From Paludibacteraceae bacterium (GTDB lineage Bacteria; Bacteroidota; Bacteroidia; Bacteroidales; Paludibacteraceae): a stretch of 38,907 nucleotides of DNA. Shown here one piece after another: positions 560 to 38,907 of the stretch. The notes under the pieces are model-generated. The model was not told where the DNA came from, did no database searches, and was given only the letters and a program-made list of their open reading frames with translations. The stretch's first letter is position 1. The number at the start of each line of letters is the position of its first letter. Made by a program: the position numbers and the translations under genes. The DNA is taken from positions 1 through 38,907 of the forward strand of contig JAFYWK010000009.1 of the NCBI GenBank assembly GCA_017558065.1, in the 5' to 3' direction.

Positions 560-721
560 AGGGAAAAAAAATGACAATAATTGACGAATAAAATTGACTT
601 GAATTGTTGTTTAATCCCCGCGGCTCCGCCGCCCACAATGCTCGCTCTGCGAGCCTAAAGCGATCTTTGAAATAGTGGAATTACCAAAAAATGAGAAAAA
701 ATGCATTTTTTTCTCTTATTG

Positions 722-754
722 CTTGTGTATATCAGAAAAAAATACTACTTTTGC
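722..754 (+). promoter_or_regulatory. Promoter of the toxin-antitoxin operon
   Basis: CTTG (722-725), a 20-nt spacer and TACTTTTGC (746-754) fit the Bacteroidota -33/-7 pattern. Transcription would begin near 760, about 20 nt before the antitoxin start at 779. Confidence 0.7.
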
Positions 755-778
755 GCACAAAAGTAATCAATAATTATT

Positions 779-952
779 ATGAATACGCAAGCACATGTGA
801 ATTATGATGGTGGCGTGCACGTGCACGAGGAGCCATTGGTCAATCCTAATTGGCAAAGTCAAGCCCATTATTCTCACGAAGAATTTTGGGATATGGCATA
901 CGCTGACATGGGCAAACGCTATGGCATGAACGACATCCGTGAGGCAGAATGA
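779..952 (+). CDS. Putative antitoxin of a ParE/RelE-type pair (57 aa)
   Basis: A 57-residue acidic protein begins 25 nt after a clear -7 box. Its stop overlaps the start of the toxin gene by 4 nt (ATGA, 949-952), the usual arrangement for translationally coupled toxin-antitoxin genes. It is rich in His, Asp and Glu, with a C-terminal part (EEFWDMAYADMGKRYGM) that could form the toxin-wrapping helix. No ribbon-helix-helix or Phd fold is obvious from sequence, so the DNA-binding type is unknown. The role as antitoxin is inferred from position and size. Confidence 0.65.
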   Translation: MNTQAHVNYDGGVHVHEEPLVNPNWQSQAHYSHEEFWDMAYADMGKRYGMNDIREAE

Positions 953-1245
953 TGCGCGTGATTAGATATAGTGCCGATGCCTATAGCGATATCGTCAATC
1001 TAAACGACTATATCGTTCAGCAATGTTGCGCTCCTTTGACTGCTAAACGCTATCTTGCAGGTTTGGAGCAACGGATTTTGTGGCTGAAGCAAAATGCAGA
1101 TTTGTTTCCTATCGTGCCCGAGTTATCTTTTCAGTTGGGTTCACCCATCCGCCGCTTAAATTATGAGCGAATGGCAATCTTGTATTCGATGACAGATGAA
1201 GCGGTGTATATCCATCGTATCATACCTCAGAGCATGATTTATTAA
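949..1245 (+). CDS. ParE/RelE-superfamily toxin (98 aa)
   Basis: The length and pattern fit the ParE_toxin family: an N-terminal strand (RVIRYSADAYSDI), two helices with a conserved Tyr/Leu pattern (NDYIVQQ, RYLAGLEQRI), a Pro-rich turn near residue 55 (FPIVPEL), then RRLNYERMAILYSMTDEAVYIHRIIP, which matches the closing strands of the fold. Members act as gyrase inhibitors (ParE) or ribosome-dependent mRNases (RelE). The sequence does not settle which, though the lack of an obvious RelE catalytic set favours ParE. The start is at 949 or 952. A strong terminator follows, so the pair is a closed two-gene unit. Confidence 0.8.
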   Translation: MMRVIRYSADAYSDIVNLNDYIVQQCCAPLTAKRYLAGLEQRILWLKQNADLFPIVPELSFQLGSPIRRLNYERMAILYSMTDEAVYIHRIIPQSMIY

Positions 1246-1265
1246 ATAAATAATACATTAAAGTT

Positions 1266-1300
1266 AACGGTAATTCCACAAAACGGAGTTACCGTTTTTT
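1266..1300 (+). terminator. Terminator after the toxin gene
   Basis: A 12-bp stem (AACGGTAATTCC with GGAGTTACCGTT, one G-U pair) has a 7-nt loop and a run of six T. A sister terminator with the same core follows the first ATPase gene at 3604-3638. Confidence 0.9.
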
Positions 1301-1351
1301 ATATGGAATCACATATACCTATGGCTTGCCACTTATGTGCCCCCTATCACC

Positions 1352-1395
1352 ATTGGAACCTCATTGGAACCTCATTGGAACTTGATTGGAATCTC
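1352..1395. repeat. 11-bp tandem repeat, 4 units
   Basis: Units ATTGGAACCTC, ATTGGAACCTC, ATTGGAACTTG and ATTGGAATCTC follow with no spacer. The period is about one helical turn. Other 11-bp arrays lie at 34435-34478 and 34553-34596. Confidence 0.85.
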
Positions 1396-1576
1396 ACTAT
1401 AGGATAAGCATAGGATAAGTATGGGATGGCTCTCCTTTCTATGTCCATTACGCCGAATGTTATTCGGGTAATCGCAGAGGGAGAATGAGCGCCCCGCCGT
1501 CTGTTTAGTCTGCGGGGTCCCCGATGACGCTTGCGTCATGGGGTGCATTTCGGCGGTAGTCCGCCGAGTATCCGCA

Positions 1577-1693
1577 GTCGGTCGTACCCTCGGCATATTT
1601 GCCGAGTCTCCCGTGGATGGTTGTACCCTCGGCATATTTGCCGAGTCCCCCGCAGTCGGTCGTACCCTCGGCATATTTGCCGAGTATCACCGC
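1577..1693. repeat. 39-bp tandem repeat, 3 units, each with a hairpin
   Basis: Three contiguous 39-bp units (1577, 1616, 1655) each carry CTCGGCATATTTGCCGAG, a 7-bp stem with a TATT loop. Units 1 and 3 share GTCGGTCGTACC and unit 2 reads GATGGTTGTACC. Single copies lie near 461-489 and 3849-3880. Because 39 is a multiple of three, all frames stay open, which explains the long false ORFs here. There are no spacers, so this is not a CRISPR array. Confidence 0.85.
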
Positions 1694-1710
1694 AAAAGAA
1701 CAGCCTCTCA

Positions 1711-1755
1711 TTTGTGGATTGTCAATGTGCATGGCACATTCTTCCAATCCACAAA
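1711..1755. repeat. Nested 45-nt hairpin, copy 2 (block 1691-1811)
   Basis: Identical to the hairpin at 515-559, with the same 11-bp outer and 7-bp inner stems. The flanking block differs from copy 1 at a few positions only. Confidence 0.8.
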
Positions 1756-1933
1756 AAGGAAAAAAATTGACAATAATTGACAAATGAAATTGACATTAAT
1801 TGTCGTTTAATACCCGCGCCCCTGCCGCCCCTAGTACTACTAGTCCGGCTAGCGCAACTATAACAACTATAGCAACACCCCGCCCTCGGGCGATAACATA
1901 AAATAACTTTGAGTGTAACGAAAAGTGTCCCTG

Positions 1934-1961
1934 CCTTTACACTTTACACCTTACACTCTAC
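1934..1961. repeat. Heptanucleotide tandem tract, 4 units
   Basis: Units CCTTTAC, ACTTTAC, ACCTTAC and ACTCTAC are read on the plus strand. On the minus strand the unit is AGTGTAA or AGGTGTA-like, the same AG-NNN-A-purine design as the tract at 386-420. An almost identical tract is at 4110-4137. Confidence 0.75.
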
Positions 1962-2160
1962 ACCAAAATAACCCTCTATCACTCCCCTTCTTTTAGGAAG
2001 GGGTTGGGGGTAGGCTGATAACCTAAAACAGCAGCTCTGCTGCCCACAACGCTCGCTCTGCGAGCCCACAGTGTTCTTTGAAATATTGAAATTACCGCAT
2101 ATACGCGAGAATTATTCATAACGATGTAGTTCTTGTGTATATCAAAGAGGATGGTATTTA

Positions 2161-2223
2161 CCACAATTCTTCCAAGTGAAATACCACAATTTTTCCAAGT
2201 GAAATGCCACAATTTTTCCAAAT
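2161..2223. repeat. 23-bp tandem repeat next to the first ATPase promoter
   Basis: Two full units (2161-2183, 2184-2206) and a partial third (2207-2223) share CCACAATTTTTCCAAGTGAA; the first has one T-to-C change. The array ends two bases before the -33 box at 2226. Direct repeats abutting a promoter are typical of operators, so binding by a regulator is possible, but no regulator is identified. Confidence 0.8.
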
Positions 2224-2225
2224 TA

Positions 2226-2258
2226 TTTGCATAAGTCAATTATTATTAGTACCTTTGC
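2226..2258 (+). promoter_or_regulatory. Promoter of the first DUF4143 ATPase
   Basis: TTTG (2226-2229), a 20-nt spacer and TACCTTTGC (2250-2258) form a canonical Bacteroidota promoter. It rules out a translation start upstream of about 2264. Confidence 0.85.
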
Positions 2259-2283
2259 AGCGGATTTGAAAAATGATAAAGAC

Positions 2284-3573
2284 ATGAGGTATTTTAAGCG
2301 TATTTCAGATGAATTGTTGCACCAACGTTTGCAAGCGATGGGTGCCGTGTTGATAGAAGGCCCCAAGTGGTGTGGTAAGACTACTACGGCTGCCCAACAA
2401 GCCCAATCAATCATTCGCTTGCAAGATCCAGACGAGCGAGCCAACTATGATATGATTGCTCAAAATCGTCCCTCGTTGTTCTTGCAGGGAGAAACACCTC
2501 GTCTGATAGATGAGTGGCAGGATTATCCTGTGGTGTGGGATGCTGTGCGTATAGAGGTGGATAAACGCCAAACAACAGGTCAATTCATCTTGACGGGTTC
2601 CAATGTGGTTGATGAAACACAGATTCGCCACTCTGGTACGGGACGCATTTCTCGTTTGCAAATGGGTACAATGAGCCTTTGGGAGTCGCAAGAGAGTAAT
2701 GGACTAATCTCGCTAAAAGAGTTGTTTGATAATCCTCAAATGGATTTAGATGTGTTGTCCAATCTCTCAGTAGATGATTTGATATACGCTGCATGTCGTG
2801 GTGGATGGCCTGCTGCTGTGAGTGCAAAAACTAAAAAGTCTGCATTGTCCGTAGCGCGTGATTATGTGAATACGGTTTGTACTTCTGATATTATGCGTAT
2901 AGATGGCAGTAACCGTAACTCAAAACTCACACGCCAAATACTGCGTTCGTATGCACGCAATATATCCACTTTAGCAAAAACAGGTTCGTTGTTGCAAGAT
3001 GTCGTGGCTTCTGATGATGTGGATTGCTCTCGTACAACTTTTGATGACTACGTAGATGCACTGGAGCGATTGTTTGTGATTCAGAATATTGGGGCATGGT
3101 GTCCTGCTATTCGTAGCAAAACGGCAATCCGTAGTGGTGATAAGCGAGGGTTCTGTGACCCCAGTATTGCTGTAGCGTTGCTTGGATTAACACCAGAATC
3201 TATGCAGATGCAGTTGAATACATTCGGATTTATTTTTGAGCAATTGTGTATTCGTGATTTGAAGGCATATACAGCTGATCAATATGCTACGGTGTCTTAT
3301 TATAATGACCGATATGGTTTAGAGGCGGATATCGTTTTGCATTTGGATGATGGACGTTACGCGCTTATTGAGTGTAAGTTGGGAAGTGCCGAGGTGGATG
3401 CAGGTGCAGCTCATTTGTTGAAGCTACAGGATTTGATTCGTGAGCATAATCTGACGGAAAAGCAAGTGCCTATTCGTGAACCAGACTTGTTGATAGTTCT
3501 TACAGGAGGCAAGGTCGGATTACGCCGAAAGGATGGTGTGTATGTTATCCCGATTGGCTGTTTAAAAGACTAA
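2284..3573 (+). CDS. AAA_14/DUF4143 ATPase, first copy (429 aa)
   Basis: The N-terminal P-loop domain has Walker A GPKWCGKT (residues 26-33) and Walker B RLIDEWQ (73-79). A sensor-like LTGSN motif follows the ATPase core, as in AAA_14 proteins. The C-terminal DUF4143 half has a PD-(D/E)xK-like pattern: D349 in EADIVL, and E363 and K365 in IECK. The family is very common in Bacteroidota and its biochemical role is not established; links to plasmid or archaeal-type AAA proteins are only by fold. The frame is open upstream to 2227, but the -7 box at 2250-2258 makes ATG 2284 the start. It is a single-gene unit between a tandem-repeat operator candidate and its own terminator. It is only distantly similar to the second ATPase, so the two are not a recent duplication. 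Confidence 0.85.
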   Translation: MRYFKRISDELLHQRLQAMGAVLIEGPKWCGKTTTAAQQAQSIIRLQDPDERANYDMIAQNRPSLFLQGETPRLIDEWQDYPVVWDAVRIEVDKRQTTGQFILTGSNVVDETQIRHSGTGRISRLQMGTMSLWESQESNGLISLKELFDNPQMDLDVLSNLSVDDLIYAACRGGWPAAVSAKTKKSALSVARDYVNTVCTSDIMRIDGSNRNSKLTRQILRSYARNISTLAKTGSLLQDVVASDDVDCSRTTFDDYVDALERLFVIQNIGAWCPAIRSKTAIRSGDKRGFCDPSIAVALLGLTPESMQMQLNTFGFIFEQLCIRDLKAYTADQYATVSYYNDRYGLEADIVLHLDDGRYALIECKLGSAEVDAGAAHLLKLQDLIREHNLTEKQVPIREPDLLIVLTGGKVGLRRKDGVYVIPIGCLKD

Positions 3574-3603
3574 TATCGATTAGTGGCTGTAGTATAATTT
3601 AAG

Positions 3604-3638
3604 CGGTAATTTCAATAAGCGGAATTACCGTTTTTTTT
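3604..3638 (+). terminator. Terminator after the first ATPase
   Basis: A 10-bp stem (CGGTAATTTC with GGAATTACCG, one U-G pair) has a 7-nt loop and eight T. Its core matches the terminator at 1266-1300. Confidence 0.85.
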
Positions 3639-4290
3639 GTGGAATCAATAGTCAAGACAAAACATTTTGGACTAATAAGTTCAAAATCTATAAAGGGACA
3701 ACTCACGCCCTTTGGGCGTACAAAATAACAAGCGGCTCCGCCGCATAAAACGCTCGCTCCGCGAGCAAAGTGACCTTTAAAATAAATAACCACGGCTATC
3801 TCCAATTGGCTGTATAGCCTCGCGGTTCCGTCCGCGAGTCCCCCGTGGTTGGTCGTACCCTCGGCATATTTGCCGAGTAACGCCGCAAAAGAACATCCCT
3901 CTCATTTGTGGATTGTCAATGTGCATGGCACATTCTTCCAATCCACAAAAGGGAAAAAATTGACAATAATTGACGAATAAAATTGACTTGAATTGTCGTT
4001 TAATACTCGCGGCTTTGCCGCCCCTAGTACTACTAGTCCGGCTAGCGCAACTACCGCCCTCGGGGCGACAACATAAAATAACTTTGAGTGTAACGAAAAG
4101 TGCCCCTTGCCTTTACACTTTACACCTTACACTCTACACCAAAATAACCCTCTATCACTCCCCTTCTTTTAGGAAGGGGTTGGGGGTAGGCTAATAACTA
4201 AAAACAGCGGCTCCGCTGCCCACAACGCTCGCTCTGCGAGCCCAAAGCGATCTTTGAAGTATTGTGATATTTTGATAAAAAAATGCCAAA
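3639..4290. repeat. Composite non-coding repeat region, copy C
   Basis: In order: a short unique stretch; GCGGCTCCGCCGC and GCTCGCTCCGCGAGC palindromes (3732-3765); a TGACCTTTAAAATAA block (3771-3785); a single CTCGGCATATTTGCCGAG unit (about 3860-3878); the 122-nt hairpin block (3894-4004); CCTAGTACTACTAGTCCGG (from 4023); a GAGTGTAACG block with a heptad tract (4110-4137); the CTCCCCTTCTTTTAGGAAGG block (4158-4177); and a second palindrome pair and GATCTTTGAAGTATT (to 4263). The right half, 3894-4265, runs parallel to region B nearly base for base. The 74-residue ORF at 3970-4194 is a repeat artefact. Confidence 0.85.
3905..3949. repeat. Nested 45-nt hairpin, copy 3 (block 3894-4004)
   Basis: Identical to the hairpins at 515-559 and 1711-1755. 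The three copies precede three separate accessory units. Confidence 0.8.
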
Positions 4291-4293
4291 TCT

Positions 4294-4326
4294 TTTGGTC
4301 TATTGAAAAAAAAGTTGTATTTTTGC
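4294..4326 (+). promoter_or_regulatory. Promoter of the second DUF4143 ATPase
   Basis: TTTG (4294-4297), a 20-nt spacer and TATTTTTGC (4318-4326) are followed by the ATG at 4345. Confidence 0.8.
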
Positions 4327-4344
4327 AAAAAAAATCAATAGAAC

Positions 4345-5601
4345 ATGAAAGAAGTAAGCAGAAATGAGTACCTAACTCGTTTGGAAAGCAAACGAGGCAA
4401 TCGTATGGTAAAGGTAATTACAGGTATTCGCCGTTGTGGCAAATCGTATCTGTTGTTTACCCTGTTCCGTCGTCATCTATTGGCGCAAGGTGTGGATGAA
4501 CAACATATCATTGCGTTGGCTTTGGATGATATGCTCAACGAAGAGTACCGCAACCCTAAGGCGTTATATCAGTATGTGTTAGACCGCGTTACTGATAATC
4601 AAATGTATTATATCCTCTTGGATGAGATACAATTAGTTGAAGGCTTTGAGGCGGTGCTGAATGGCTTTCTGCATCGTGATAATCTGGATGTGTATGTCAC
4701 AGGTAGTAACTCACGTTTCTTGTCCTCTGATATTATCACGGAGTTCCGTGGTCGAGGTGATGAGATTCGCGTCTTTCCATTCCGTTTTGCAGATGTATGT
4801 ACGCTCTACGAGGAGCATCCACAGGTATTGCTGAGTCAGTATTATTATTATGGCGGTATGCCACAAGTGTGGATGACGGATAATACAAAAGAACGTGAGC
4901 AATATCTTCGTGCTTTGTTTGACAATGTTTATTTGTCTGATATTATTGGTCGTTATCATTTGCGCGGAGTAGAGGAGATAGGTATGCTAACGGATGTCTT
5001 AGCTTCGGCAGTAGGTTCTTTGACTAATACTACGCGCTTGAGAAACACTTTCAAAAGCGAGTGTAAATCCGATATTTCTCAAAATACCATTGGTAGTTAC
5101 ATTGAGTATCTGAAGGATTCTTTTCTTTTGAACGAAGCCAAACGTTATGATATCAAGGGGAGGCAGTACATTGGAGCGCAGCAGAAGTACTATTTTATAG
5201 ATTTGGGTTTGCGTAATGCGCGTTTGCAATTCCGTCAGCAGGATGATGGTCATTTGATGGAGAACATGATATACAATGAGTTACTTTCTCGTGGTATGTT
5301 AGTGGATGTGGGTATTGTACCAGTTTGGGAAAAGGATGAAAATCAAAAGTTGATTCGTAAGCAGTACGAGGTCGATTTTGTGGTGAATAGTGGTAGTCGT
5401 AAATACTATATTCAATCTGCTTTTGAGATGCCAACTGGCGAGAAACGCAAGCAAGAAACGCAATCTTTCCGCAAGATTGGCGATGGTTTTAAGCGAATCT
5501 TGATTCAAAACGCGCCTGTTGTTCCGTGGCATGATGACGATGGTATTTTTACTATTTCGCTAACGGATTTCTTGCTGAAGCCAGAAGCATTAGATTGGTA
5601 G
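4345..5601 (+). CDS. AAA_14/DUF4143 ATPase, second copy (418 aa)
   Basis: Walker A is GIRRCGKS (residues 27-34) and Walker B is YILLDEIQ, with D93 and E94. VTGSNS follows as the sensor region. The middle has the family hallmark YYYGGMPQVW and NVYLSDIIGR. The C-terminal DUF4143 part has EVDFVV and then YYIQSAF where other family members have an ExK; this Gln/Ser form suggests the nuclease-like site is degenerate, as is common in this subfamily. The start is ATG 4345, 19 nt after the -7 box. The gene belongs to a different subfamily from the ATPase at 2284-3573. Cellular role is unknown. No strong terminator follows, only a 6-bp hairpin at 5644-5660. Confidence 0.85.
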   Translation: MKEVSRNEYLTRLESKRGNRMVKVITGIRRCGKSYLLFTLFRRHLLAQGVDEQHIIALALDDMLNEEYRNPKALYQYVLDRVTDNQMYYILLDEIQLVEGFEAVLNGFLHRDNLDVYVTGSNSRFLSSDIITEFRGRGDEIRVFPFRFADVCTLYEEHPQVLLSQYYYYGGMPQVWMTDNTKEREQYLRALFDNVYLSDIIGRYHLRGVEEIGMLTDVLASAVGSLTNTTRLRNTFKSECKSDISQNTIGSYIEYLKDSFLLNEAKRYDIKGRQYIGAQQKYYFIDLGLRNARLQFRQQDDGHLMENMIYNELLSRGMLVDVGIVPVWEKDENQKLIRKQYEVDFVVNSGSRKYYIQSAFEMPTGEKRKQETQSFRKIGDGFKRILIQNAPVVPWHDDDGIFTISLTDFLLKPEALDW

Positions 5602-5902
5602 TTTGATTCCCAGTTGATGGATTAAATAAGGCATTTTAGATTTTGTACGCTTAACGTACACAATTATCAAAATAGGAGCAATTTGCATAGTGCAAGTTGT
5701 TCTTGTTTTATTGTCAAAATATCACATTGCACTTCCAAAGAGGCGACAACATAGAATCCGCAGCATTGCTGCTGTAGGCTATAAGTCGAGAGGCTAAAGG
5801 CGATGAGGTGCGGATTAGCGGCTTCGCCGCGCAAGTGACCTTTGAAATATTGAAGCAATAGTAAAGAAACAAAAAAAAGGCATTTTTGAAATTCGCTCGG
5901 CA
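5602..5902. repeat. Non-coding gap with reduced composite repeat, copy D
   Basis: This gap is mostly unique AT-rich sequence. The right part has pieces of the composite repeat: GGCGACAACATA (5742-5753), degenerate heptad units AGGCTAAAGGCGAT (5791-5804), GCGGCTTCGCCGC (5819-5831) and a GTGACCTTTGAAATATTG block (5835-5852). It has no 45-nt hairpin and no clear promoter for the next gene. Confidence 0.7.
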
Positions 5903-5905
5903 GTG

Positions 5906-6715
5906 ATGAGCGAAATAGGAATTGTCCCTATTTCTGTTGAAATTCAGCCGTTTACATTTTGCTCATCAGTGATGAGCGAAATTAGCGAGCAAGATATAAT
6001 GAGTTTTACCTCTATTGGTTTTACACATCATTGTATAATATTTGCACAAGTAAAGGACATTTCTGCCCGTTGGTTCTATATCCGCAGAGCGGCAACTGAG
6101 TTTTGGGGCACGCGGCGTTTGGAGCAAGCTTTGCGCGATGACCTATATCACACATTAGGGGCAATGCCAAGCAATTTTGAGTTAACTATTCCTAATGAGA
6201 AACAGCGTGCAGTTGCTATGCAGACTTTCAAGGAGAACCATGTGTTGGACTTCTGGCATGTGGATGATCCCGACCATGTAGATGAGCGTGATGTAGAGCA
6301 ACATATTGTGAATAACATCAAGAACTTTATGATGTCATTGGGCAATGAGTTTACTTTTATGGGTAATCAGTATCGCGTGATAGTGGATGAGAAGGAGCGT
6401 TTTATTGATTTGCTCTTTTATCATCGAAGGATGCGTTGCATGGTAGCCATAGAGTTGAAGAATGGAGAGTTCCAACCAGAGTATGCTGGCAAACTCAATT
6501 TCTACTTGTCTGCTTTGGATGAATATGTCAAGTTGCCCGATGAGAATCCAAGTATTGGTATTATCTTGTGTAGAGATAAGAGTAATACGGAAGTGGAGTT
6601 TACTTTGCGTGATATGTCCAAACCCTTGGGTGTGGCAACATACCGCAGCGTAGATGAATTGCCAGAGCATTATCGTTCATTGCCTTCGGCTGATGAGTTG
6701 CGCAAGTTGATGTAA
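5906..6715 (+). CDS. YhcG/DUF1016-family nuclease-like protein, N-terminally short (269 aa)
   Basis: From about residue 35 the sequence follows the YhcG (DUF1016) C-terminal region: HHCIIFAQVKD, FYIRRAATEFWGTRRLEQ, LRDDLYHTLGAMPSNF, VEQHIVNNIKNFMM, then a PD-(D/E)xK core with D168 in FIDLLF and E183-L-K185 in VAIELK, and NPSIGIILCRDKSN. Family members usually have 330-380 residues, so most of the N-terminal DUF1016_N domain is missing. The first codons carry a 16-nt direct repeat (5901-5916 and 5967-5982) exactly 66 nt apart, so VMSEI is repeated in frame, which suggests deletion or duplication at the 5' end. Candidate starts are GTG 5903, ATG 5906, 5972 or 5999. The family is often found near restriction systems. 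Whether this copy is active is uncertain. Confidence 0.75.
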   Translation: MSEIGIVPISVEIQPFTFCSSVMSEISEQDIMSFTSIGFTHHCIIFAQVKDISARWFYIRRAATEFWGTRRLEQALRDDLYHTLGAMPSNFELTIPNEKQRAVAMQTFKENHVLDFWHVDDPDHVDERDVEQHIVNNIKNFMMSLGNEFTFMGNQYRVIVDEKERFIDLLFYHRRMRCMVAIELKNGEFQPEYAGKLNFYLSALDEYVKLPDENPSIGIILCRDKSNTEVEFTLRDMSKPLGVATYRSVDELPEHYRSLPSADELRKLM

Positions 6716-6744
6716 TCCCATTGATTGATATATTTCGTTTCTTT

Positions 6745-6775
6745 ACCGATATGCCTAATCGCATGTCGGTTTTTT
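6745..6775 (+). terminator. Terminator after the YhcG-like gene
   Basis: A 10-bp stem (ACCGATATGC with GCATGTCGGT, one G-U pair) has a 6-nt loop and a T run. Confidence 0.85.
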
Positions 6776-7016
6776 CTATTGTTTCGATAAAATATCCCCG
6801 CGGCTTTGCCGCCCCTAGTACTACTAGTCCGGCTAGCGCAACTATAACAACTATAGCAACACCCCGCCCTCGGGCGACAACATATAATCAATTTCTATCA
6901 CTCCCCTTCTTTTAGGAAGGGGTCGGGGGTAGGCCAATAACTAAAACAGCGGCTCCGCCGCACAAAAACAGAATTATTAACAACTTAAAAATAGCGGCTC
7001 TGCCGCAACAAAGCTT
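6776..7016. repeat. Composite non-coding repeat region, copy E
   Basis: Blocks are CGCGGCTTTGCCGC, CCTAGTACTACTAGTCCGG (from 6814), CCCCGCCCTCGGGCGACAAC (about 6863-6882), CTCCCCTTCTTTTAGGAAGG (6901-6920) and GCGGCTCCGCCGC (6950-6962). A last GCGGCTCTGCCGC lies only about 15 nt before the start of the giant gene. The 45-nt hairpin and heptad tract are absent. No canonical promoter was found for the next gene. Confidence 0.8.
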
Positions 7017-30912: not shown

Positions 30913-31123
30913 TCGCCGAAAGGCGACGATGCCCGATAGGACGGACGTCTGTTGAAAGAGTTTCACGCCCTTTGGGTTGTTTCACGCTTCGTTGTTTCAA
31001 ACCTTGAAACTTTGAAACTCTGAAACAAGTGCCAACGGCACATGAAACAAGCGACCTTGTCGCCTGAACCCTTAAAACTGTTAAAACTATTAAAACATTT
31101 TAAACAATAATTTTTTTACAACT
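30913..31123 (+). promoter_or_regulatory. Long 5' leader of fba with several repeat types
   Basis: About 200 nt separate the promoter from the start. It contains short TGAAAC repeats with an 8-bp period (about 31003-31027), a GCGAC/GTCGC hairpin in a 27-nt sequence (31042-31068) that returns after the CoA-transferase gene (34299-34325, two differences), and four 9-bp units of type NNTTAAAAC (31070-31105). I see no known riboswitch. Confidence 0.65.
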
Positions 31124-32125: not shown

Positions 32126-32175
32126 TCGCTTAGCGATTAGATAGTTGAAAGAGTTTTAGGCGCACCTGCGGTGCT

Positions 32176-32201
32176 GTTTTAATAGTTTTAAAGGTGAGAT
32201 T
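32176..32201. repeat. Left arm of a 26-bp inverted repeat around the S23 gene
   Basis: This arm matches the reverse complement of 32704-32729 at 24 of 26 positions, including the non-repetitive GGTGAGATT. The two arms lie 502 nt apart and bracket the whole S23 gene. Confidence 0.8.
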
Positions 32202-32237
32202 GGTATCGACTAATCCACCTTTGAAACCCTAATACCC

Positions 32238-32271
32238 TTAAAACCTTTAAAACTCTTAAAACTCTTAAAAC
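32238..32271 (+). repeat. 9-bp tandem leader before the S23 gene, 4 units
   Basis: TTAAAAC occurs at 32238, 32247, 32256 and 32265, an exact 9-bp period, and ends 10 nt before the ATG. Matching leaders precede fba (31072-31105) and the CoA-transferase gene (32714-32738). Confidence 0.85.
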
Positions 32272-32281
32272 TTTTATCCTA

Positions 32282-32698
32282 ATGAAAGCAACAAGTTTTG
32301 AGGAATTGAAGATTTGGCAAAACGCGCGAGAATTGACAAAAGAGATTTATGTCATAACTCGTTTGCCCGAATTTAGCAAGGACTATAGATTTGTTGGACA
32401 AATCACGGCTGCAATGGGTTCTGTGATGGACAACATAGCAGAAGGATTTGAGAGAGATGGAAACAAAGAGTTTTTACAATTTCTATCAATCGCAAAAGGA
32501 TCATGTGGCGAGGTTAGAAGCCAAATATACCGAGCATATGATGTGGGGTATATAAATGAAGAAACCTTTCAAATACTATTGAATAAAATTAAAATGCTAA
32601 GTTCTGGTATTTTCCATTTTATACAAAGTTTGAGAGCTTCTGAAATAACCGGCAAAAAGCGCAAGGAGATAGTGACTCCTACTATGCTTAACTATTAA
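32282..32698 (+). CDS. S23 / four-helix-bundle protein (138 aa)
   Basis: The sequence fits the S23 (23S rRNA intervening-sequence-like) family: FEELKIWQNARELTKEIY at the start, FVGQITAAMGSVMDNIAEGFER, FLQFLSIAKGSCGEVRSQIYRAYDVGYI, and a helical C-terminal end. The fold is a four-helix bundle that forms pentamers; the family also includes Avd of retroelements. No 23S gene, reverse transcriptase or variable repeat is present. Codons are less biased than in fba and the CoA-transferase gene, between which it sits. The flanking inverted repeat suggests it moved as a cassette. Function is unknown. Confidence 0.85.
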   Translation: MKATSFEELKIWQNARELTKEIYVITRLPEFSKDYRFVGQITAAMGSVMDNIAEGFERDGNKEFLQFLSIAKGSCGEVRSQIYRAYDVGYINEETFQILLNKIKMLSSGIFHFIQSLRASEITGKKRKEIVTPTMLNY

Positions 32699-32703
32699 AA
32701 TCT

Positions 32704-32729
32704 AATCTCACCCTTAAAACTTTTAAAAC
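32704..32729. repeat. Right arm of the 26-bp inverted repeat around the S23 gene
   Basis: Reverse complement of 32176-32201 with two mismatches. It begins six bases after the S23 stop. It overlaps the 9-bp leader of the next gene (TTAAAAC at 32714, 32723, 32732). Confidence 0.8.
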
Positions 32730-32746
32730 TTTTAAAACTTTTTCAC

Positions 32747-34249
32747 ATGTTAAAATACATGACCGCTGCTGAAGCAGCACAGCTTGTACCTCACGGAGCA
32801 ATATGCGGCATGGGTGGTTTCACCCCTGCCGGCGCTCCAAAGGATGTTCCTTCTGCTATCGCTGCGATGGCAGAACAACTCCACGCTGAGGGCAAACCAT
32901 ATAAGATTGGCATGTACACCGGTGCTTCTACTGGTGACAGCTGCGACGGTGCACTTGCTCGCGCACACGCCATCGAGTTCCGTACTCCATACCAAGGTAA
33001 CAAAGACCTCCGCACCGAGCTCAATGCACAAGGTGCACACTACTACGATATGCACCTCTCAGAGTTGGCGCAAGACCTCCGCTACGGCTTTATGCCAAAG
33101 CCAGACTTCGCTATCGTAGAGGCATGCGAGGTAGTAGAGAAAGGTGACCAAGTAGAGATCGTTCTCACCGCAGGTGTAGGTAACGTACCTACTTTCTGCC
33201 GCTTGGCTGACAAGGTGATCGTAGAGCTCAATGAGGCCATGCCTGCCGCTATGCGTGGTATGCACGATATCTACGAGCCTGCAGACCCACCTGTACGCCG
33301 CGAGATCCCTGTATATACCGTTGCTGACCGCATCGGTGCAGACTGCGTGACTATCCCTGCTGAGAAATTGGTGGCTGTCGTTAAGACCAACCGTCCTAAC
33401 GAGGTAGGTGGTTTCACTCCGCTGGATGAGACTACTGCTAAGATTGGTGCGAACGTAGCTGCTTTCCTCGAGAACGAGATGAAAGAGGGCCGCATCCCAG
33501 CATCTTTCTTGCCAATCCAATCAGGTGTAGGTAACATCGCTAACGCCGTACTCTACGCTTTGGGTGATAACAAGAACATCCCTGCTTTTGAGATGTACAC
33601 CGAGGTGATCCAAGACTCTGTAGTGGAATTGATGAACGCAGGTCGCGTGAAGTTTGCAAGTGGTTGCTCACTCACTATTGGTTCTGATAAGCTCCAAGAG
33701 ATTCTTGACAACCTTGATTTCTTCCGCAGCAAGATCGTGCTTCGTCCACAAGAGATTAGTAACAACCCTGAGGTAGCTCGTCGTCTTGGTCTCATCACCA
33801 TCAACACCGCACTCGAGGCAGATATCTTCGGTAATATCAACTCTACCCACGTTTGCGGTACGAAGATGATGAACGGTATCGGTGGTTCAGGCGACTTTAC
33901 CCGCAACGCATACATCAGCATCTATACTACTCCATCTACCGCTAAGGGTGGTGCTATCTCAGCATTCTTGCCTATGGTTAGCCACCACGACCACAGCGAG
34001 CACTCTGTGAAGATCATCATCACCGAGCACGGTATTGCTGACTTGCGTGGTAAGAGCCCAATCCAACGCGCTCATGAGATCATCAACAACTGTGTGGATC
34101 CACAATACCGCCCATTGTTGACTGAGTACTTGGAGATGTCTAAGACTGCTCACACCCCTCACACCTTGAGCTGCGCATTGGCTATGCACGAGGAGTTCCT
34201 CAAGTCAGGCGATATGCGTAACACCAAGTGGGAGAACTATAAACGCTAA
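32747..34249 (+). CDS. Acetyl-CoA hydrolase/transferase family CoA-transferase (500 aa)
   Basis: The family pattern is complete: N-terminal GGFTPAGAPKDVPSAIA, the QSGVGNIANAVLYALGD stretch, the active-site Glu286 in EMYTEVIQDS, FASGCSL, GSGDFTRNAY and a long C-terminal part ending HEEFLKSGDMRNTKWENYKR. Relatives such as Cat1 and SCACT act as succinyl-CoA:acetate or acetyl-CoA-dependent CoA-transferases in acetate and succinate fermentation. The exact substrate is not decided by sequence. Codon use is highly biased, like fba. A 327-bp second copy of its 3' end lies at 38358-38684. The start follows three 9-bp TTAAAAC units. Confidence 0.92.
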   Translation: MLKYMTAAEAAQLVPHGAICGMGGFTPAGAPKDVPSAIAAMAEQLHAEGKPYKIGMYTGASTGDSCDGALARAHAIEFRTPYQGNKDLRTELNAQGAHYYDMHLSELAQDLRYGFMPKPDFAIVEACEVVEKGDQVEIVLTAGVGNVPTFCRLADKVIVELNEAMPAAMRGMHDIYEPADPPVRREIPVYTVADRIGADCVTIPAEKLVAVVKTNRPNEVGGFTPLDETTAKIGANVAAFLENEMKEGRIPASFLPIQSGVGNIANAVLYALGDNKNIPAFEMYTEVIQDSVVELMNAGRVKFASGCSLTIGSDKLQEILDNLDFFRSKIVLRPQEISNNPEVARRLGLITINTALEADIFGNINSTHVCGTKMMNGIGGSGDFTRNAYISIYTTPSTAKGGAISAFLPMVSHHDHSEHSVKIIITEHGIADLRGKSPIQRAHEIINNCVDPQYRPLLTEYLEMSKTAHTPHTLSCALAMHEEFLKSGDMRNTKWENYKR

Positions 34250-34345
34250 AAGCGTTGGTTGAAAGGTTTCAAAGTTTCAATGTTGAAACAGCGAAGCGAT
34301 GAAACAAGCGACATCGTCGCCTGAAACTTTTTAACAATACACAAC

Positions 34346-34370
34346 AAAAGACTGCTTCGGCAGTCTTTTT
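34346..34370 (+). terminator. Terminator after the CoA-transferase gene
   Basis: AAAAGACTGC pairs with GCAGTCTTTT around a TTCG tetraloop, followed by T. A variant with the same GACTGC core follows the duplicated 3' end at 38709-38738. Confidence 0.93.
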
Positions 34371-34762
34371 GTGTGTAAATATGCTATTTCTTAATATTCT
34401 TTTCCCTTATACCTTATATATATACATTGGACAAAAGACCAAAGAAGAACCAAGGACGAACCTAAGATGAACCTAAGAACTCCTAAACACACACAAATGC
34501 GTTTTGTTAAGATTACAATCTCTTTTATCTCTCTTATACCTTGCCCTATTCCACCGAGAGACGACCGAGAGACGACCGAAGGAACTCCGCATCAACTCCG
34601 AACCACAAAAAAGCACTTTTTTAAGACTGCCTTCCTAAAAAGGTTGACTCGATTACTAAAAAAGTTTGCCTTCTTCGCTTGCTCTCTTTGTTTATTACTC
34701 CTGAATCCTATTCGGGTACTTATCGCCTACAAACTGAAAAATGCGCCCCAAAGTGCATTTTT
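34371..34762. repeat. Non-coding gap with two 11-bp periodic arrays
   Basis: First array, 34435-34478: AGACCAAAGAA, GAACCAAGGAC, GAACCTAAGAT, GAACCTAAGAA. Second array, 34553-34596: ACCGAGAGACG twice, ACCGAAGGAAC, TCCGCATCAAC. Both have an 11-bp period like 1352-1395. The rest is AT-rich. A 116-residue plus-strand ORF (34467-34817) runs through both the repeats and the promoter and is not a gene. Confidence 0.75.
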
Positions 34763-34795
34763 CTTGCACATCTCAAAAAAATATTGTACCTTTGC
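34763..34795 (+). promoter_or_regulatory. Promoter of the kinase-like gene
   Basis: CTTG (34763-34766), 20 nt and TACCTTTGC (34787-34795), 29 nt before the ATG at 34824. Confidence 0.8.
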
Positions 34796-34823
34796 AGCGC
34801 AAAGGTTGAATTACTAAAAAGCT

Positions 34824-35630
34824 ATGTCTCAATACACACAAAATAGCACATCAATGATTGAACTTGAGTCAATCTATGCTGCTATTCGTGACAATGGCTT
34901 TTCGGAACAGACAATACAATTGATTGACAATTATACAAACGATATACTCAATGGAAAAACAAACCTTACTCAATTCAATCAAGCGGAGCATGCAGGTCTC
35001 TGCTGCGCAGGTGAGATGCTCATTGGGGCGTACCTCGTCTGCTGCTACGCGCGAACAAGCATTGCAGCAAGTGCAGATGCTTCAGCAAGCCAAGTTAGCC
35101 CAGCAAATTGGCAAATAGACGAACTCCAAGAAAAACTAGTTCAGCAATGGGCAGAAGCCCGTGGCGTATGGTTTGATAATGCAGAAAAAGAAATCGAAAC
35201 AGAATATGGTTCGATGATTGCTCAAGGAGCAGAAGCAAAAGTGTATTATCAAAATGGAGATACATCAGTGATTAAACTCCGCACCTCGATTTATGCCACA
35301 TTTGGTAGAGCATTAGAATCCATTGCTTTGCATAACGCGTTGTTCGCAGAGACACCGATGAATGTCATAGGATTCACACGCGATACAGAGGGGCTACTCC
35401 GCACCATTTGTACGCAACCATACATAACATGCAAAAGACTGGCTACCAAGCAAGAAATAGATCAGATGGTCGCCAAAAAAGGTTTTCGTGATAACTGTGA
35501 AGGCAAAGGTGTTAATTATATTGGCGACCGATTACATTTGGAAGATATGCACCCAGCTAATGTGTTTATTGACGCAGTGTCAGATATGCCAGTCTGCATT
35601 GATTGCATCGTAAAGTTTATAAGAAACTAA
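34824..35630 (+). CDS. Polyvalent-kinase-like protein, stand-alone (268 aa)
   Basis: Residues about 125-265 resemble the polyvalent protein kinase domain seen in large mobile-element proteins. Visible kinase-type positions are Lys151 in SVIKL (strand 3), then FTRDTEGLLRTICTQPYI, the ATKQEIDQMVAKKGF helix, a catalytic-loop-like LEDMHPANVFID with D241 and N246, and D260 in VCIDCI in place of DFG. The N-terminal 120 residues are helical, with a Cys-rich patch (GLCCAGEM, LVCCYAR) and an Ala/Ser-rich linker, and have no recognised family. Stand-alone copies are uncommon compared with fused ones. It opens the block that ends in the duplicated CoA-transferase 3' end. Whether it phosphorylates a partner, such as in a toxin-antitoxin or defence role, is unknown. 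Confidence 0.6.
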   Translation: MSQYTQNSTSMIELESIYAAIRDNGFSEQTIQLIDNYTNDILNGKTNLTQFNQAEHAGLCCAGEMLIGAYLVCCYARTSIAASADASASQVSPANWQIDELQEKLVQQWAEARGVWFDNAEKEIETEYGSMIAQGAEAKVYYQNGDTSVIKLRTSIYATFGRALESIALHNALFAETPMNVIGFTRDTEGLLRTICTQPYITCKRLATKQEIDQMVAKKGFRDNCEGKGVNYIGDRLHLEDMHPANVFIDAVSDMPVCIDCIVKFIRN

Positions 35631-35965
35631 CATACCGTCGCTCACCGACGTAAAACAGGAGGACATATTATAAAAGCGTTTATTAGCGCTTGTTTTGGTC
35701 AATAGAAAACTGGAAACTTTCTAACCTATCCAAAGCAAGAAGGCAGTAAACGCCCTTTGGGATATGTATATCCCACCCGCAGAGCGTCCTTCGGGATTGC
35801 TCTGTTTGGTGGCATTTCATATTCGGCGTGGGCGTTGCTTGCTTATTCTTATAGGAAAGGTTTTCCAGTACCTCTATTGAGAGAATAAGCAAAGGTAAGG
35901 TTCCACGCTTTTTCATATCTATTTACGGGCAGTTAGGAGCCAACTACCCACAACAACGAAAAACA
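35631..35965. other. Non-coding leader region with a conserved-looking element
   Basis: A CGTCG/CGACG hairpin lies at 35637-35651, and a weak AAGCG/CGCTT hairpin with T run at about 35673-35695 may end the kinase transcript. The stretch 35683-35916 has a 77-residue minus-strand ORF with CHQTEQSRRTLCGWDIHIPKGVY. From memory this string resembles short hypothetical proteins that recur in many Bacteroides and Prevotella gaps, so it is more likely a repeated DNA or RNA element than a gene. No canonical promoter was found for the downstream lipoprotein. Confidence 0.5.
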
Positions 35966-37873
35966 ATGAAAAAACTCAGTTTGCTCCTGCTCACGCTAAC
36001 AATCTGTTTCTTCACAGCGTGCCACAAAGACATTTGGGCAGAATTGGAAAACCTCGACCAACGCGTCACCAAACTTGAAGAACTCTGCAAGGAGATGAAC
36101 ACCAACATCACATCTTTGCAGACCATCGTCTCTGTACTCCAATCCAACGATTACATCACTGGTATCGTTGAAATCAAGAAGAATGGCGAAGTAATTGGCT
36201 ATACCATTACCTTTGGTAAACACGATCCTATTACTATTTACCACGGACAAGACGGCAAAGACGGTCAGAATGGCGCTGACGGTAAGGATGGACAAGATGG
36301 CTCATCAAATACCCCTGTAATCGGCGTAGCAAAAGATACCGATGGCGTTTACTATTGGACTTTGAACGGCGAATGGCTGTTGGATGACAATGGCAACAAA
36401 CTCCCTGTATCTGGCACCAATGGCAAAGACGGTCAAAATGGCTCTAATGGTCAAGACGGTACTGATGGCAAGGATGGTCAAGATGGAACCGACGGCAAGG
36501 ACGGACAGGATGGTGCTGATGGAAAAGATGGCGTAACTCCTCAGTTGAAGATTGAGGATGGCTATTGGTATATCTCATACGATAATGGCGCAACCTGGAC
36601 ACAACTCGGCAAGGCCACAGGTGAAGACGGTAAGGATGGTGCTGATGGTCAAGACGGACAAAATGGTACCAACGGCAAAGACGGTCAAAATGGTGACTCT
36701 ATGTTCCAATCTGTAACCCAAGATGAGAACTATGTTTATTTCACACTTGCTGATGGTACAGTTATTAAGATAGCAAAAGGAAATGGCAATAGCCAACCTA
36801 ACGGAGATGAGTATATTGATTTTAAGGATTTAGCCGTAAAAAGGAGATTGATAGAAAAGTATGACTTAAATCAAGATGGAGAGATTTCATACAATGAAGC
36901 AAGAAGTGTTTTCGGCAGATTAGTACTTTATCATCCTGGATGGAGCGACCCAATAGACTTCTATTCTTTCAAAGAATTTAAGTACTTTACAAATGTTACT
37001 TCATGCCGCATTGGTTCCTGTAGTTTATTTGAGATAGAGTTTCCAGAGGGATTAGACAGTATAATTTCATGTAATGGACATATCACTTCCCTAAGAATCC
37101 CTTCTGGTTGTAAGTATATAGGAAAAAATGCCTTTTGTATTATGAAAAATGATGAAGTGGGAAATCCAGAGGTGGGAAATACATGTAGCATAAAAAACAT
37201 AATTTGGAATGATAGTATTGAATATATTGGCACAAATGCTTTTGGAGATAATGTTTACAATTTTTCATGCTTACCTAATTCTATTAAAATTGCTGAAAGT
37301 GGTGCGTTGATTATATCTTCTCAAACATTTACATTTCCTAACTCTTTTCAAGGTAAACCTAATGGTATTAGAGTAAGTGCAGATACTATATATTGGAATA
37401 CAAACCACTTTATAGGGTCATATAGTAATGTTCCAACTACATCATGGATATATTGTGGATTGGGTTGGGTAACAGAACAAAGTGTGCAAACTTATAATAA
37501 AAAGATAAAAAAAGTAATATTTGGTAGTGAGGTGCAAACTATTCCAGATTATTTATGCAGTTGCTTAGATAGTCTTACGGAAGCAAACATACCTGACAAT
37601 GTGCAAACAATTGGTTATCGAGCATACTATAATTCTCGTTATTTAACAAAAGTAACATTAGGCGCTGGGATAGTAGAAATCAAAGATGAAGCACTTTATT
37701 ATCAATATGCAAGGTCGTTAAAGGTATATTGTAAAGCAACAACCCCTCCTATAATCGGGAAGAATGCATTTTCACCCGATGTAATAATTTATGTTCCTAA
37801 ATCATCAGTAGAAGATTATCGAACATTTTGGAGCGATTATGCAGATCGAATTGTTGGATATGATTTTGAGTGA
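35966..37873 (+). CDS. DUF4988/collagen-like/BspA-like surface lipoprotein (635 aa)
   Basis: A lipoprotein signal ends at Cys19 (FFTACHK). A coiled coil (about 22-61, ending EMNTNITSLQTIVSVLQ) and a DUF4988-type domain with NDYITGIVEIKKNGEVIGYTI follow. Three Gly-x-y stretches rich in KDG/QDG lie at 94-113, 150-189 and 218-243, separating two small beta modules (NTPVIGVAKDTDGVYYWTLNGEWLLDDNG; LKIEDGYWYISYDNGATW). An EF-hand-like D300-LNQDGEISYNE311 is next, then leucine-rich LRR_5/BspA repeats from about 380 to 620 (YIGKNAF, YIGTNAF, TIGYRAYYNS, EIKDEALYY, IIGKNAF). The first 800 nt use codons like the core genes, while the part after about 36790 is AT-rich. A cell-surface binding role is likely but inferred. 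Confidence 0.85.
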   Translation: MKKLSLLLLTLTICFFTACHKDIWAELENLDQRVTKLEELCKEMNTNITSLQTIVSVLQSNDYITGIVEIKKNGEVIGYTITFGKHDPITIYHGQDGKDGQNGADGKDGQDGSSNTPVIGVAKDTDGVYYWTLNGEWLLDDNGNKLPVSGTNGKDGQNGSNGQDGTDGKDGQDGTDGKDGQDGADGKDGVTPQLKIEDGYWYISYDNGATWTQLGKATGEDGKDGADGQDGQNGTNGKDGQNGDSMFQSVTQDENYVYFTLADGTVIKIAKGNGNSQPNGDEYIDFKDLAVKRRLIEKYDLNQDGEISYNEARSVFGRLVLYHPGWSDPIDFYSFKEFKYFTNVTSCRIGSCSLFEIEFPEGLDSIISCNGHITSLRIPSGCKYIGKNAFCIMKNDEVGNPEVGNTCSIKNIIWNDSIEYIGTNAFGDNVYNFSCLPNSIKIAESGALIISSQTFTFPNSFQGKPNGIRVSADTIYWNTNHFIGSYSNVPTTSWIYCGLGWVTEQSVQTYNKKIKKVIFGSEVQTIPDYLCSCLDSLTEANIPDNVQTIGYRAYYNSRYLTKVTLGAGIVEIKDEALYYQYARSLKVYCKATTPPIIGKNAFSPDVIIYVPKSSVEDYRTFWSDYADRIVGYDFE

Positions 37874-37878
37874 TAGAC

Positions 37879-38274
37879 ATGTTAAAAAAAGGATATATTT
37901 ACAGTGTAAGAGATTATGATAATAATCCTCACAAAATAGTCTTGATGGAAGACTATGACGGAGTCAGCACGCGTATAAAGGCAGTTGCATTTACACATAA
38001 CGAAAAAGGGACATCAAAATACCCGAACAAACCTATCAACAAGGAATTTTTTGTTGAAATGGATGAGAATGGGAATCCTTACAAATTCCAGTGGGAATGC
38101 TTAGGTGTTGGAAGAAGTACCAGTATAATTCTTCATGGCTTCGAAAAAATAGTGTTAAATATCAAATCAAGAATAATCGGACAAATTACAGAAGAAGGGC
38201 TAAAATGGATAGCCGAGCATGTTGAAACATACATAATTTGTGATGTTGACATAAAGACGGATTCGCAATCTTGA
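37879..38274 (+). CDS. Small protein of unknown function (131 aa)
   Basis: The gene starts at ATG 37879, five nt after the stop of the lipoprotein; a GTG at 37870 overlapping that stop is possible. It is AT-rich like the 3' half of its neighbour, so both probably arrived together. The protein is soluble with beta-rich N-terminal part (LKKGYIYSVRDYDNNPHKIVLMEDYD, then TRIKAVAFTHNE) and a helical C-terminal end (ITEEGLKWIAEHVETYI). The beginning faintly recalls PemK/MazF-like proteins (KG-x-IYSV), but the match is too weak to assign. A strong terminator follows. Confidence 0.6.
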   Translation: MLKKGYIYSVRDYDNNPHKIVLMEDYDGVSTRIKAVAFTHNEKGTSKYPNKPINKEFFVEMDENGNPYKFQWECLGVGRSTSIILHGFEKIVLNIKSRIIGQITEEGLKWIAEHVETYIICDVDIKTDSQS

Positions 38275-38285
38275 TATTTTCTTCT

Positions 38286-38328
38286 CTCACCCCGCCAGTC
38301 ATTCATTGAACTGGTGGGGTGAGTTTTT
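38286..38328 (+). terminator. Terminator after the small unknown gene
   Basis: A 14-bp stem (CTCACCCCGCCAGT with ACTGGTGGGGTGAG, one G-U pair) has a 10-nt loop and five T. Confidence 0.92.
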
Positions 38329-38357
38329 ATGCTCGCGAAATAGTCGCTGCGTGGTTT

Positions 38358-38684
38358 TATACTACTCCTTCTACCGCTAAGGGTGGTGCTATCTCAGCAT
38401 TCTTGCCAATGGTAAGCCACCACGACCACAGCGAGCACTCTGTGAAGATTATCATCACAGAGCATGGTATTGCTGATTTGCGTGGTAAGAGCCCAATCCA
38501 ACGCGCTCACGAGATTATCAACAACTGTGTGGATCCACAATACCGCCCATTGTTGAACGAGTACTTGGAGATGTCTAAGACCGCTCATACCCCTCACACC
38601 TTGAGCTGCGCATTGGCTATGCACGAGGAGTTCCTCAAGTCTGGCGATATGCGTAACACCAAGTGGGAGAATTATAAACGCTAA
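38358..38684 (+). pseudogene. Second copy of the CoA-transferase 3' end, truncated
   Basis: These 327 nt align with 33923-34249 without any gap. I count 15 differences; 13 are synonymous third-position changes and two fall in one Thr-to-Asn codon. The encoded C-terminal 108 residues are therefore all but identical, and the stop and a related terminator are also kept. The upstream homology ends abruptly at TATACTACTCC; before it lies unrelated sequence. A false ORF starts at 38319. No promoter or start of the family is present, so it is a fragment. The pattern shows that the two copies diverged as working genes before one was cut. Confidence 0.9.
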
Positions 38685-38708
38685 ATTTAGCGTTGGTACT
38701 ATAATACA

Positions 38709-38738
38709 AAAAAGACTGCTCCGAAAGCAGTCTTTTTT
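38709..38738. terminator. Bidirectional terminator between convergent genes
   Basis: AAAAAGACTGCT pairs with AGCAGTCTTTTT around CCGAA, with A and T runs on both sides. It serves the fragment and the minus-strand gene, and its core matches the terminator at 34346-34370. Confidence 0.88.
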
Positions 38739-38744: not shown

Positions 38745-38907
38745 TTAGTACTTAATCTTGAAGTACTGCAAGTGTTCTTTGTAATAATCTTGTGCGGTAA
38801 GACAGGTGTCGGTTAAGAATCCTTTGATATGATCCCAGTTTTGGATACCTCTATAATAATATAGGCGCAAGTCCTCTGTGATAATAAATGGTACGATATT
38901 ATTCTGC
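38745..38907 (-). CDS. C-terminal end of a probable Fic-family protein (partial)
   Basis: A minus-strand frame is open from the window edge to the stop at 38745-38747, giving 54 residues. It reads NIVPFIITEDLRLYYYRG, then NWDHIKGFLTDTCLTAQDYYKEHLQYFKIKY. The pattern PF-I-x(6)-L-x-YYRG followed by GYLxDTCLxAQD is one I associate with the C-terminal end of Fic-domain AMP-transferases and related proteins. The catalytic HxFx(D/E)GNGR motif would lie outside the window, so the call rests on the tail only. Confidence 0.55.
   Translation of the reverse strand, partial: QNNIVPFIITEDLRLYYYRGIQNWDHIKGFLTDTCLTAQDYYKEHLQYFKIKY

Follow-up and report, generated by a model that had tools for sequence, protein, structure and literature searches.

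A displaced CoA-transferase gene end borders variable cargo genes in Paludibacteraceae and suggests an integrase-free recombination hotspot

A repeated CoA-transferase gene end

The window examined here, the whole 38,907-nucleotide contig JAFYWK010000009.1 of assembly GCA_017558065.1 read on the forward strand, comes from a Paludibacteraceae bacterium and is contig C7 of the 2.44-Mb assembly in 83 contigs that we designate G000. Toward its right end lies an intact CoA-transferase gene whose 3' end occurs twice: as the live end of the gene (F) and again, beyond an insert of 4108 bp, as a displaced and truncated second copy (P).

32747..34249, + strand: intact CoA-transferase gene of the acetyl-CoA hydrolase/transferase family, succinate or butyryl-CoA:acetate type (Pfam PF02550/PF13336; NCBIfam NF053666, TIGR03458 and NF053853 over cut-off)
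33923..34249, + strand: F copy, live CoA-transferase 3' end, gene nucleotides 1177-1503 (repeat search, BLAST, alignment)
38358..38684, + strand: P copy, displaced, truncated second CoA-transferase 3' end (repeat search, BLAST, alignment, codon comparison)

An earlier note on this DNA had described F and P as an ungapped 327-bp pair with nearly all differences silent, and both statements were confirmed. By repeat finder and BLAST alike the copies are 95.4% identical over 327 bp with zero gaps, a match of a length far beyond chance expectation, and over 109 codons they differ by 14 synonymous differences and one amino-acid change. Searched with the CoA-transferase query, the genome itself yields three matches, namely the gene, the tail and the end of contig C45, which shares a 344-bp overlap (97% identity) with the right end of the window and is taken to continue the window or to represent a strain variant. 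Contig breaks fall within or close to the repeat in G000 (C7/C45) and in two relatives (G067 and G175), as an assembly or binning artefact might have it; misassembly of the order of F, cargo and P is nevertheless unlikely, because two further genomes carry the same joint with other cargo, G014 inside a 282-kb contig and G101, and the arrangement is found again, with different cargo or a different joint, in G101, G103 and G172. We therefore regard an artefact as extremely improbable. No account of this CoA-transferase locus was found in the open-licence PubMed Central (PMC) literature.

Joints, cargo and tail-free sites in related genomes

A first comparison, with the whole CoA-transferase gene as query against 41 genomes, gave a second tail in G000 and G014 only; two matches in G004 were caused by a CoA-transferase gene cut between contigs. 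Among 178 genomes of the genus, 159 have a CoA-transferase match and at least 14 have more than one, with up to three candidates scored per genome. Fourteen genomes, that of the window included, have CoA-transferase ends at least 92% identical among the matches listed and make up the near set (G000, G014, G101, G103, G067, G172, G068, G096, G086, G064, G106, G088, G087 and G175); G088 gave two matches in the 178-genome search and one in a second search, the extra match being among those unlisted. The seven matching named records, from six genomes, are Paludibacteraceae or Bacteroidales, and the source of four of these six genomes is deer, buffalo or cattle gut.

Cargo lies between the gene and a displaced tail in 6 of the 14 near genomes, and the tails begin at one of two points. 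At the first joint (J1; G000, G014 and G101) the tail starts at gene nucleotide 1177, giving the 327-bp tail of the window, and at the second (J2; G067, G103 and G172) it consists of the last 92 bp of the gene, from nucleotide 1412. The J1 joint pattern, TATGCTCGCRAAATAGTCGCT, is present in one copy in each of the three J1 genomes and, allowing up to two mismatches, is absent from the rest of the 178 genomes. The tail is reduced to gene nucleotides 1177-1311 in G101 and is split by an insert of about 190 bp in G014, and the gene and cargo of G067 are distributed across contigs C20 and C99. An ungapped alignment of G103 and G172 runs for 2225 bp and stops three bases past the displaced stop codon. 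Further short tails of 46-123 bp occur in G175 (C48), G041 (C15), G132 (C27) and G077 (C101); they are excluded from the count of six carriers, and their contexts were read for G175 and G041. As a separate observation, the insert in the G014 tail (L031:11080-11275) has inverted-repeat ends, CCCAAATCGGTCATTAG..CTAATGACCGATTTGGG, and resembles a miniature inverted-repeat transposable element.

Relatives without a tail, as the earlier note had foreseen, make up 7 of the 14 near genomes. In five near genomes (G068, G086, G096, G106 and G175) a convergent gene of one cluster, whose G086 member matches FGE-sulfatase, lies 77-87 bp behind the stop codon with no tail there; the G175 gene is split over two contigs and is not among the seven tail-free genomes, and the other four are. 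G064, G087 and G088 have other neighbours behind the gene. The strain that was also predicted, with an uninterrupted gene directly before the Fic-family gene of the window's right flank, was not seen among the 14, and Fic lies behind the tail in G000 and G067. As a control, an equally long tail of the aldolase gene next door matched exactly once in 13 of the 14 near genomes; the exception, G172, had no match. The same query gave two matches in 9 of the 178 genomes, with four candidates scored per genome; the five second matches listed are all longer than 300 bp and are, to judge from this length, second gene copies. Three genomes (G078, G108 and G139) have two aldolase and two CoA-transferase matches each, the second CoA-transferase being about 67-70% identical to that of the window.

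The insert of the window and its right flank comprise the following features.

34347..34370, + strand: terminator-like hairpin behind the live gene, GACTGCTTCGGCAGTC (from sequence)
34387..34670, + strand: A element, a non-coding block with many genomic repeats, also at this site in G014 and G101 (repeat comparison)
34757..34799, + strand: promoter-like stretch ending TTTGCAGCG, recurring in the window and the genome (repeat D9)
34824..35630, + strand: cargo slot 1, Kinase-PolyVal protein of 268 amino acids; a RhuM-family gene in G101, none in G014 (Pfam)
35662..35973, + strand: B leader, shared 5' leader of the surface-protein gene, with copies elsewhere in the genome and at this site in G014 and G101 (repeat comparison)
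35966..37873, + strand: cargo slot 2, surface lipoprotein-like protein of 635 amino acids with DUF4988, collagen repeats and BspA-type leucine-rich repeats (Pfam)
37870..38274, + strand: cargo slot 2, small gene without a family match (Pfam, NCBIfam)
38285..38357, + strand: trail, a terminator-like hairpin and the J1 joint sequence (sequence, 178-genome pattern search)
38708..38738, + strand: terminator-like hairpin behind the displaced tail (from sequence)
38748..38907, - strand: 3' part of the convergent Fic-family gene of the right flank, complete on contig C45

The relatives did yield different cargo at this site, as the earlier note had proposed to check. The J1 carriers have the A element, B leader, trail and joint in common, and the genes held between these blocks are a kinase, a BspA-type protein and a small gene in G000, a single 284-amino-acid lipoprotein-like protein without a Pfam match in G014, and a RhuM-family gene, a Por_Secre_tail protein and a DUF4988/Flg_new protein in G101. 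By BLASTP (E 1e-3) the cargo proteins of G000 and G101 are alike only over a 99-amino-acid piece of their surface proteins, and no J1 cargo protein is alike with that of G014. The cargo of J2 is one 376-amino-acid DUF4143/AAA_14 ATPase on the reverse strand (identified by Pfam in the G103 copy and by clustering in the others), the only gene in inserts of 1509-1534 bp. The gene thus looks like a repeated entry point, with two joints in 6 of the 14 near genomes, and in this respect the earlier note's view of it as a preferred entry point for surface-protein cargo stands; its restriction to surface proteins does not, the J2 cargo being an ATPase.

Cargo behind the gene turns over among the relatives, and the right-hand neighbour varies as well. 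The J1 carriers have three different right flanks, with Fic in G000 and RecO and a Big_2 protein in the others, and the J2 carriers have Fic (G067), two proteins of the cluster to which the G014 cargo belongs (G103) and an Eco57I-type methylase (G172). Beyond the Fic gene of G067 lies, inverted, an 82% identical relative of the window's lipoprotein gene beside a relative of its small gene. One joint with three right flanks is most simply read as indicating that the tail itself would serve as the right-hand homology arm.

Several features of the block bear on its regulation and surroundings. A hairpin of the form GACTGC..GCAGTC stands 3' of both F and P, so that the terminators with a shared core described in the earlier note are present behind both copies; the same core lies behind the gene in the tail-free genomes G064 and G068 and hence provides no evidence for an insertion event. 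No known RNA family was found in the block at gathering score, and seven of eight weak hits fall on the hairpin behind the tail. The stretch at 34757..34799 is a candidate promoter. Between it and the lipoprotein leader the Kinase-PolyVal domain, whose Pfam family takes its name from polyvalent proteins, stands alone. The A element and B leader recur as the 5' leader of surface-protein genes in many places in G000 and G014, and they may provide common regulation or a substrate for cargo exchange. Twenty stretches with A/B leaders elsewhere (15 from G000, 5 from G014) were compared with themselves for direct repeats of at least 60 bp lying at least 400 bp apart. The eight pairs found, in five stretches, include one above 85% (G014 C9, 133 bp, 92%), which is intergenic, and the others are 76-82% identical; no gene-end pair exceeded 85%, and these loci were dropped as candidates for further gene-end duplications, though weaker pairs may exist.

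On contig C45 (L032, 1-2249) the Fic gene is complete, with Fic and HTH_17 matches (Pfam); beyond it lie another BspA-type leucine-rich-repeat protein, a trail-like hairpin and an A element, and a pair of open reading frames, named transposase-like from sequence only, lies further right. Within the window, AT-rich intergenic repeats of the TTAAAACTCTTAAAAC type occur at 31042-31100, 32142-32282 and 32698-32745, and similar stretches lie behind the CoA-transferase of G014, G103 and G172. The left part of the window (458-6955) contains several direct repeats of 60-450 bp with 85-95% identity.

Origin of the tails and movement of the cargo

The displaced tails look like live alleles rather than decayed copies. 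All residues of the G000 P copy occur in full genes of relatives, and in seven tail pieces only two residues are absent from 13 full genes (one of them partial). Pooled over these seven tails, differences from the host gene amount to 45 silent and 6 amino-acid changes, which departs from neutral decay since duplication (p = 6.5e-5, with half of the changes neutral under the null and changes treated as independent); the window pair alone gives p = 0.01. The contig-end pieces of C45, G067 C99 and G175 C63 are left out of this count. The tails being allele-like, their divergence arose in working genes, or else conversion keeps the tails fresh. The purifying selection on both copies proposed in the earlier note fits these counts, with conversion as an alternative source of the pattern.

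The last sense codon bears on which of the two ends is the newcomer. It is CGC in the live ends of all six carriers and CGA in seven of the eight other near genomes, and the displaced tails have CGA in G103 and G172. An incoming live end beside a resident tail fits these two of the five readable cases. Divergence at fourfold-degenerate sites falls toward the 3' end of the gene, from 0.42 to 0.16 for G101, from 0.24 to 0.19 for the group and from 0.57 to 0.50 for the outgroup, which is a hint only.

The same comparisons bear on tandem duplication in place, by slippage or unequal exchange, with subsequent loss of a second cargo and gene conversion maintaining the resemblance of tail to gene. In the tree, one loose cluster (86/91) unites the F copies of G000 and G101 with G000 P, G000 F and P are sisters in the best tree (45/69), and the last 92 bp of the live gene and the tail are identical in G067. 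On the other side, the G000 tail shares 96.9% identity with the G101 gene and 95.4% with the gene of its own genome, a slight difference in favour of the former, and the tail of G103 is identical over 92 bp to the gene end of G086. A second cargo copy is never found behind the tail in the stretches read, and three right flanks per joint would require further events anyway. Duplication in place appears rather unlikely to us.

Site-specific integration would explain why the tail starts at the same base in the three J1 genomes. Here an island, or an integrase-less remnant moved in trans in the manner of a cis-mobilizable element (CIME), would have its site in the CoA-transferase end and bring a replacement end, and the result would match e14/icdC, in which the gene functions with a new end while its native end lies displaced (PMC4444293). 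The tails, however, start at two points, gene nucleotides 1177 and 1412, rather than at a fixed attachment core, and a single clade of the live ends of the J1 hosts (G000, G014 and G101) is rejected (approximately unbiased test, p = 0.005); the element with one fixed replacement gene end that the earlier note envisaged is not supported by either result. Its statement that no integrase is present held up: a Pfam scan of the J1 cargo genes in G000, G014 and G101 and of the G103 ATPase gave no recombinase, integrase or transposase (short open reading frames were not scanned), and no PF00589 match lies on the locus-bearing contigs of the six carriers (serine recombinases were not searched). PF00589 matches number three in G000, three in G014, two in G101, three in G103, nine in G067 and one in G172, so that every carrier encodes one or more tyrosine recombinases away from the locus, which could act in trans. 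The J2 inserts, moreover, are small and hold a single gene, and neither the joint pattern nor one CoA-transferase tail pattern has an exact match in IMG/VR, a result on which phage origin was dropped. On balance site-specific integration is unlikely.

A Campbell-type single crossover of a circle bearing a gene fragment would give the same anatomy with no illegitimate step per entry, and the cargo could be lost again through the direct repeat. The block is indeed flanked by direct repeats of 327 bp at 95%, and tail-free relatives exist; the lack of exact IMG/VR matches for both patterns counts against such a circle (plasmid collections were not searched), and we judge this route to be very unlikely.

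Evidence that cargo may have moved between species comes from the J2 carriers. In their three pairs the ATPase differs at 10/140, 9/144 and 11/140 fourfold sites (0.06-0.08) and the CoA-transferase at 17/84, 38/237 and 19/86 (0.16-0.22), so that the ATPase is the less diverged in each pair (Fisher p 0.0053, 0.0058 and 0.0040). Contigs C20 and C99 of G067 are identical over 911 bp of gene end and cargo, and 7 of 109 adjoining CoA-transferase bases differ (p = 1.3e-7). The same ATPase cargo is here (L117, L118) joined to two CoA-transferase alleles in one assembly, reflecting either a strain mixture or a second tail. Mean fourfold divergence in the group is 0.39 for rpoB, 0.40 for glnS, 0.42 for gltX, 0.25 for the CoA-transferase and 0.15 for the aldolase, and the distance to the outgroup G017 is approximately equal for rpoB (0.547), glnS (0.610) and the CoA-transferase (0.565). 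G000 and G172 are 97.1% identical in rpoB, as near-sisters, and 82.9% identical in gltX, and rpoB was dropped as a species tree.

The feature is real and recurrent, and the mechanism that we infer for it draws support from these comparisons. With moderate confidence we read the locus as an integrase-free hotspot at which homologous recombination anchored in the CoA-transferase end would import cargo, the displaced tail acting as a second homology arm. In keeping with the one-sided homology that the earlier note had invoked, one border lies in homologous DNA, the CoA-transferase end being 92-97% identical to the window's copies across the near set. Incoming DNA from a related species, in which cargo follows a CoA-transferase 3' end, would pair with the resident gene; one crossover would occur within this shared end, and the opposite end of the incoming DNA would be joined without homology. 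The resident tail would thereby be pushed downstream to become P, and the gene would keep a complete working end, F. Cargo now lying between two stretches of the same gene could then be carried by homologous recombination into any relative bearing the gene, whatever adjoins it there, and the same recombination could also remove the cargo and leave the gene intact. J1 cargo may later have been swapped between the shared leader and trail blocks. The locus suggests that some related gut bacteria swap surface-protein and other genes here by ordinary recombination, without a dedicated insertion enzyme. Of the earlier interpretation, the other cargo, the tail-free relatives, the lack of an integrase in the cargo genes scanned, the homology and the repeated entry are supported, and the fixed replacement end, the surface-only cargo and the Fic-adjacent strain are not.

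Several observations weigh against this reading. No extra identical bases were found leftward of the joint at five joints (G067 was not compared), where the comparison was with the gene side alone, the parental cargo end being unavailable for alignment; the illegitimate step is therefore unexplained. No donor, with the gene followed by the same cargo and no tail, was seen among the 14 near genomes. ComEC-family matches, found in all six carriers, do not show natural competence, since 10 of 14 control genomes, E. coli among them, have such matches too. F and P within one genome are about as alike as copies between species, and this similarity, together with the clustering of G000 F and P with G101 F, keeps duplication in place with gene conversion among the candidates. 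The tails of G000, G014 and G067 have CGC, matching the live ends, so that only for G103 and G172 does the codon point directly to a resident end. The marker genes disagree (glnS-rpoB correlation 0.05), and exchange is therefore widespread rather than confined to this locus; the low divergence of the CoA-transferase may in part reflect codon bias. Finally, the matching named records are all metagenome-assembled.

The hotspot reading can be carried further. The duplicated tail would then make the cargo mobile, with end, cargo and tail forming an enzyme-free unit, addressed by homology alone, that would leave one genome through recombination of its two ends and enter any relative at the same gene without harm to that gene. 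We hold this to be possible but unlikely; if it is true, selection would maintain it as a self-restoring dock for surface proteins as well as other accessory genes.

Comparison with known systems

CIMEs and the hitchhiking of gnd with rfb are among the cases with which the locus may be compared. Prophage e14 at icd likewise gives a metabolic gene a new 3' end and leaves the old one as a pseudogene, the icdC remnant, and its excision restores the icd gene (PMC4444293). That prophage has its own integrase, intE, and one site, whereas none was found at the present locus and the tails have two start points. Many accessory-gene hotspots lack an integrase, and a survey of 80 species describes such hotspots with recombining flanking core genes (PMC5635113). 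They resemble the present locus in the high turnover of accessory genes beside a core gene with no mobility genes found; recombination is there placed at the flanking core genes, whereas here pieces of one gene lie on both sides.

Homology-facilitated illegitimate recombination has been described in Streptococcus pneumoniae, Acinetobacter and Pseudomonas stutzeri, three naturally competent species (PMC2884548; PMC3240628). As is proposed here, foreign DNA enters by one homologous anchor and one non-homologous joint, and such an event may duplicate the border. The sources describe single events, in contrast to the two joints at this locus, each common to three wild species, and it seems that the product of the event itself spreads.

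The route by which genes enter integrase-free hotspots is rarely visible, and here entry seems to leave a readable scar in the form of the displaced gene tail. Counting such scars in metagenomes could directly estimate how far gut species exchange genes without an integrase, and the locus points to one possible route for the swapping of surface proteins in uncultured Bacteroidales.

A study of the type VI secretion system (T6SS) in Vibrio proposes homology-facilitated illegitimate recombination for its immunity arrays, mentions the same process for orphan Rhs ends, and describes the spread of finished arrays by homologous recombination (PMC5361080). The T6SS effector-immunity arrays and Rhs loci share with the present locus a conserved upstream anchor, old 3' parts displaced downstream and the lack of a fixed site (PMC5361080). 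The displaced parts are there pieces of immunity or toxin genes, whereas at the present locus a metabolic gene is the anchor and the tail is no more than a gene fragment. Of these systems, the Vibrio model appears to come closest to the working of the locus, the anchor here being a metabolic gene.

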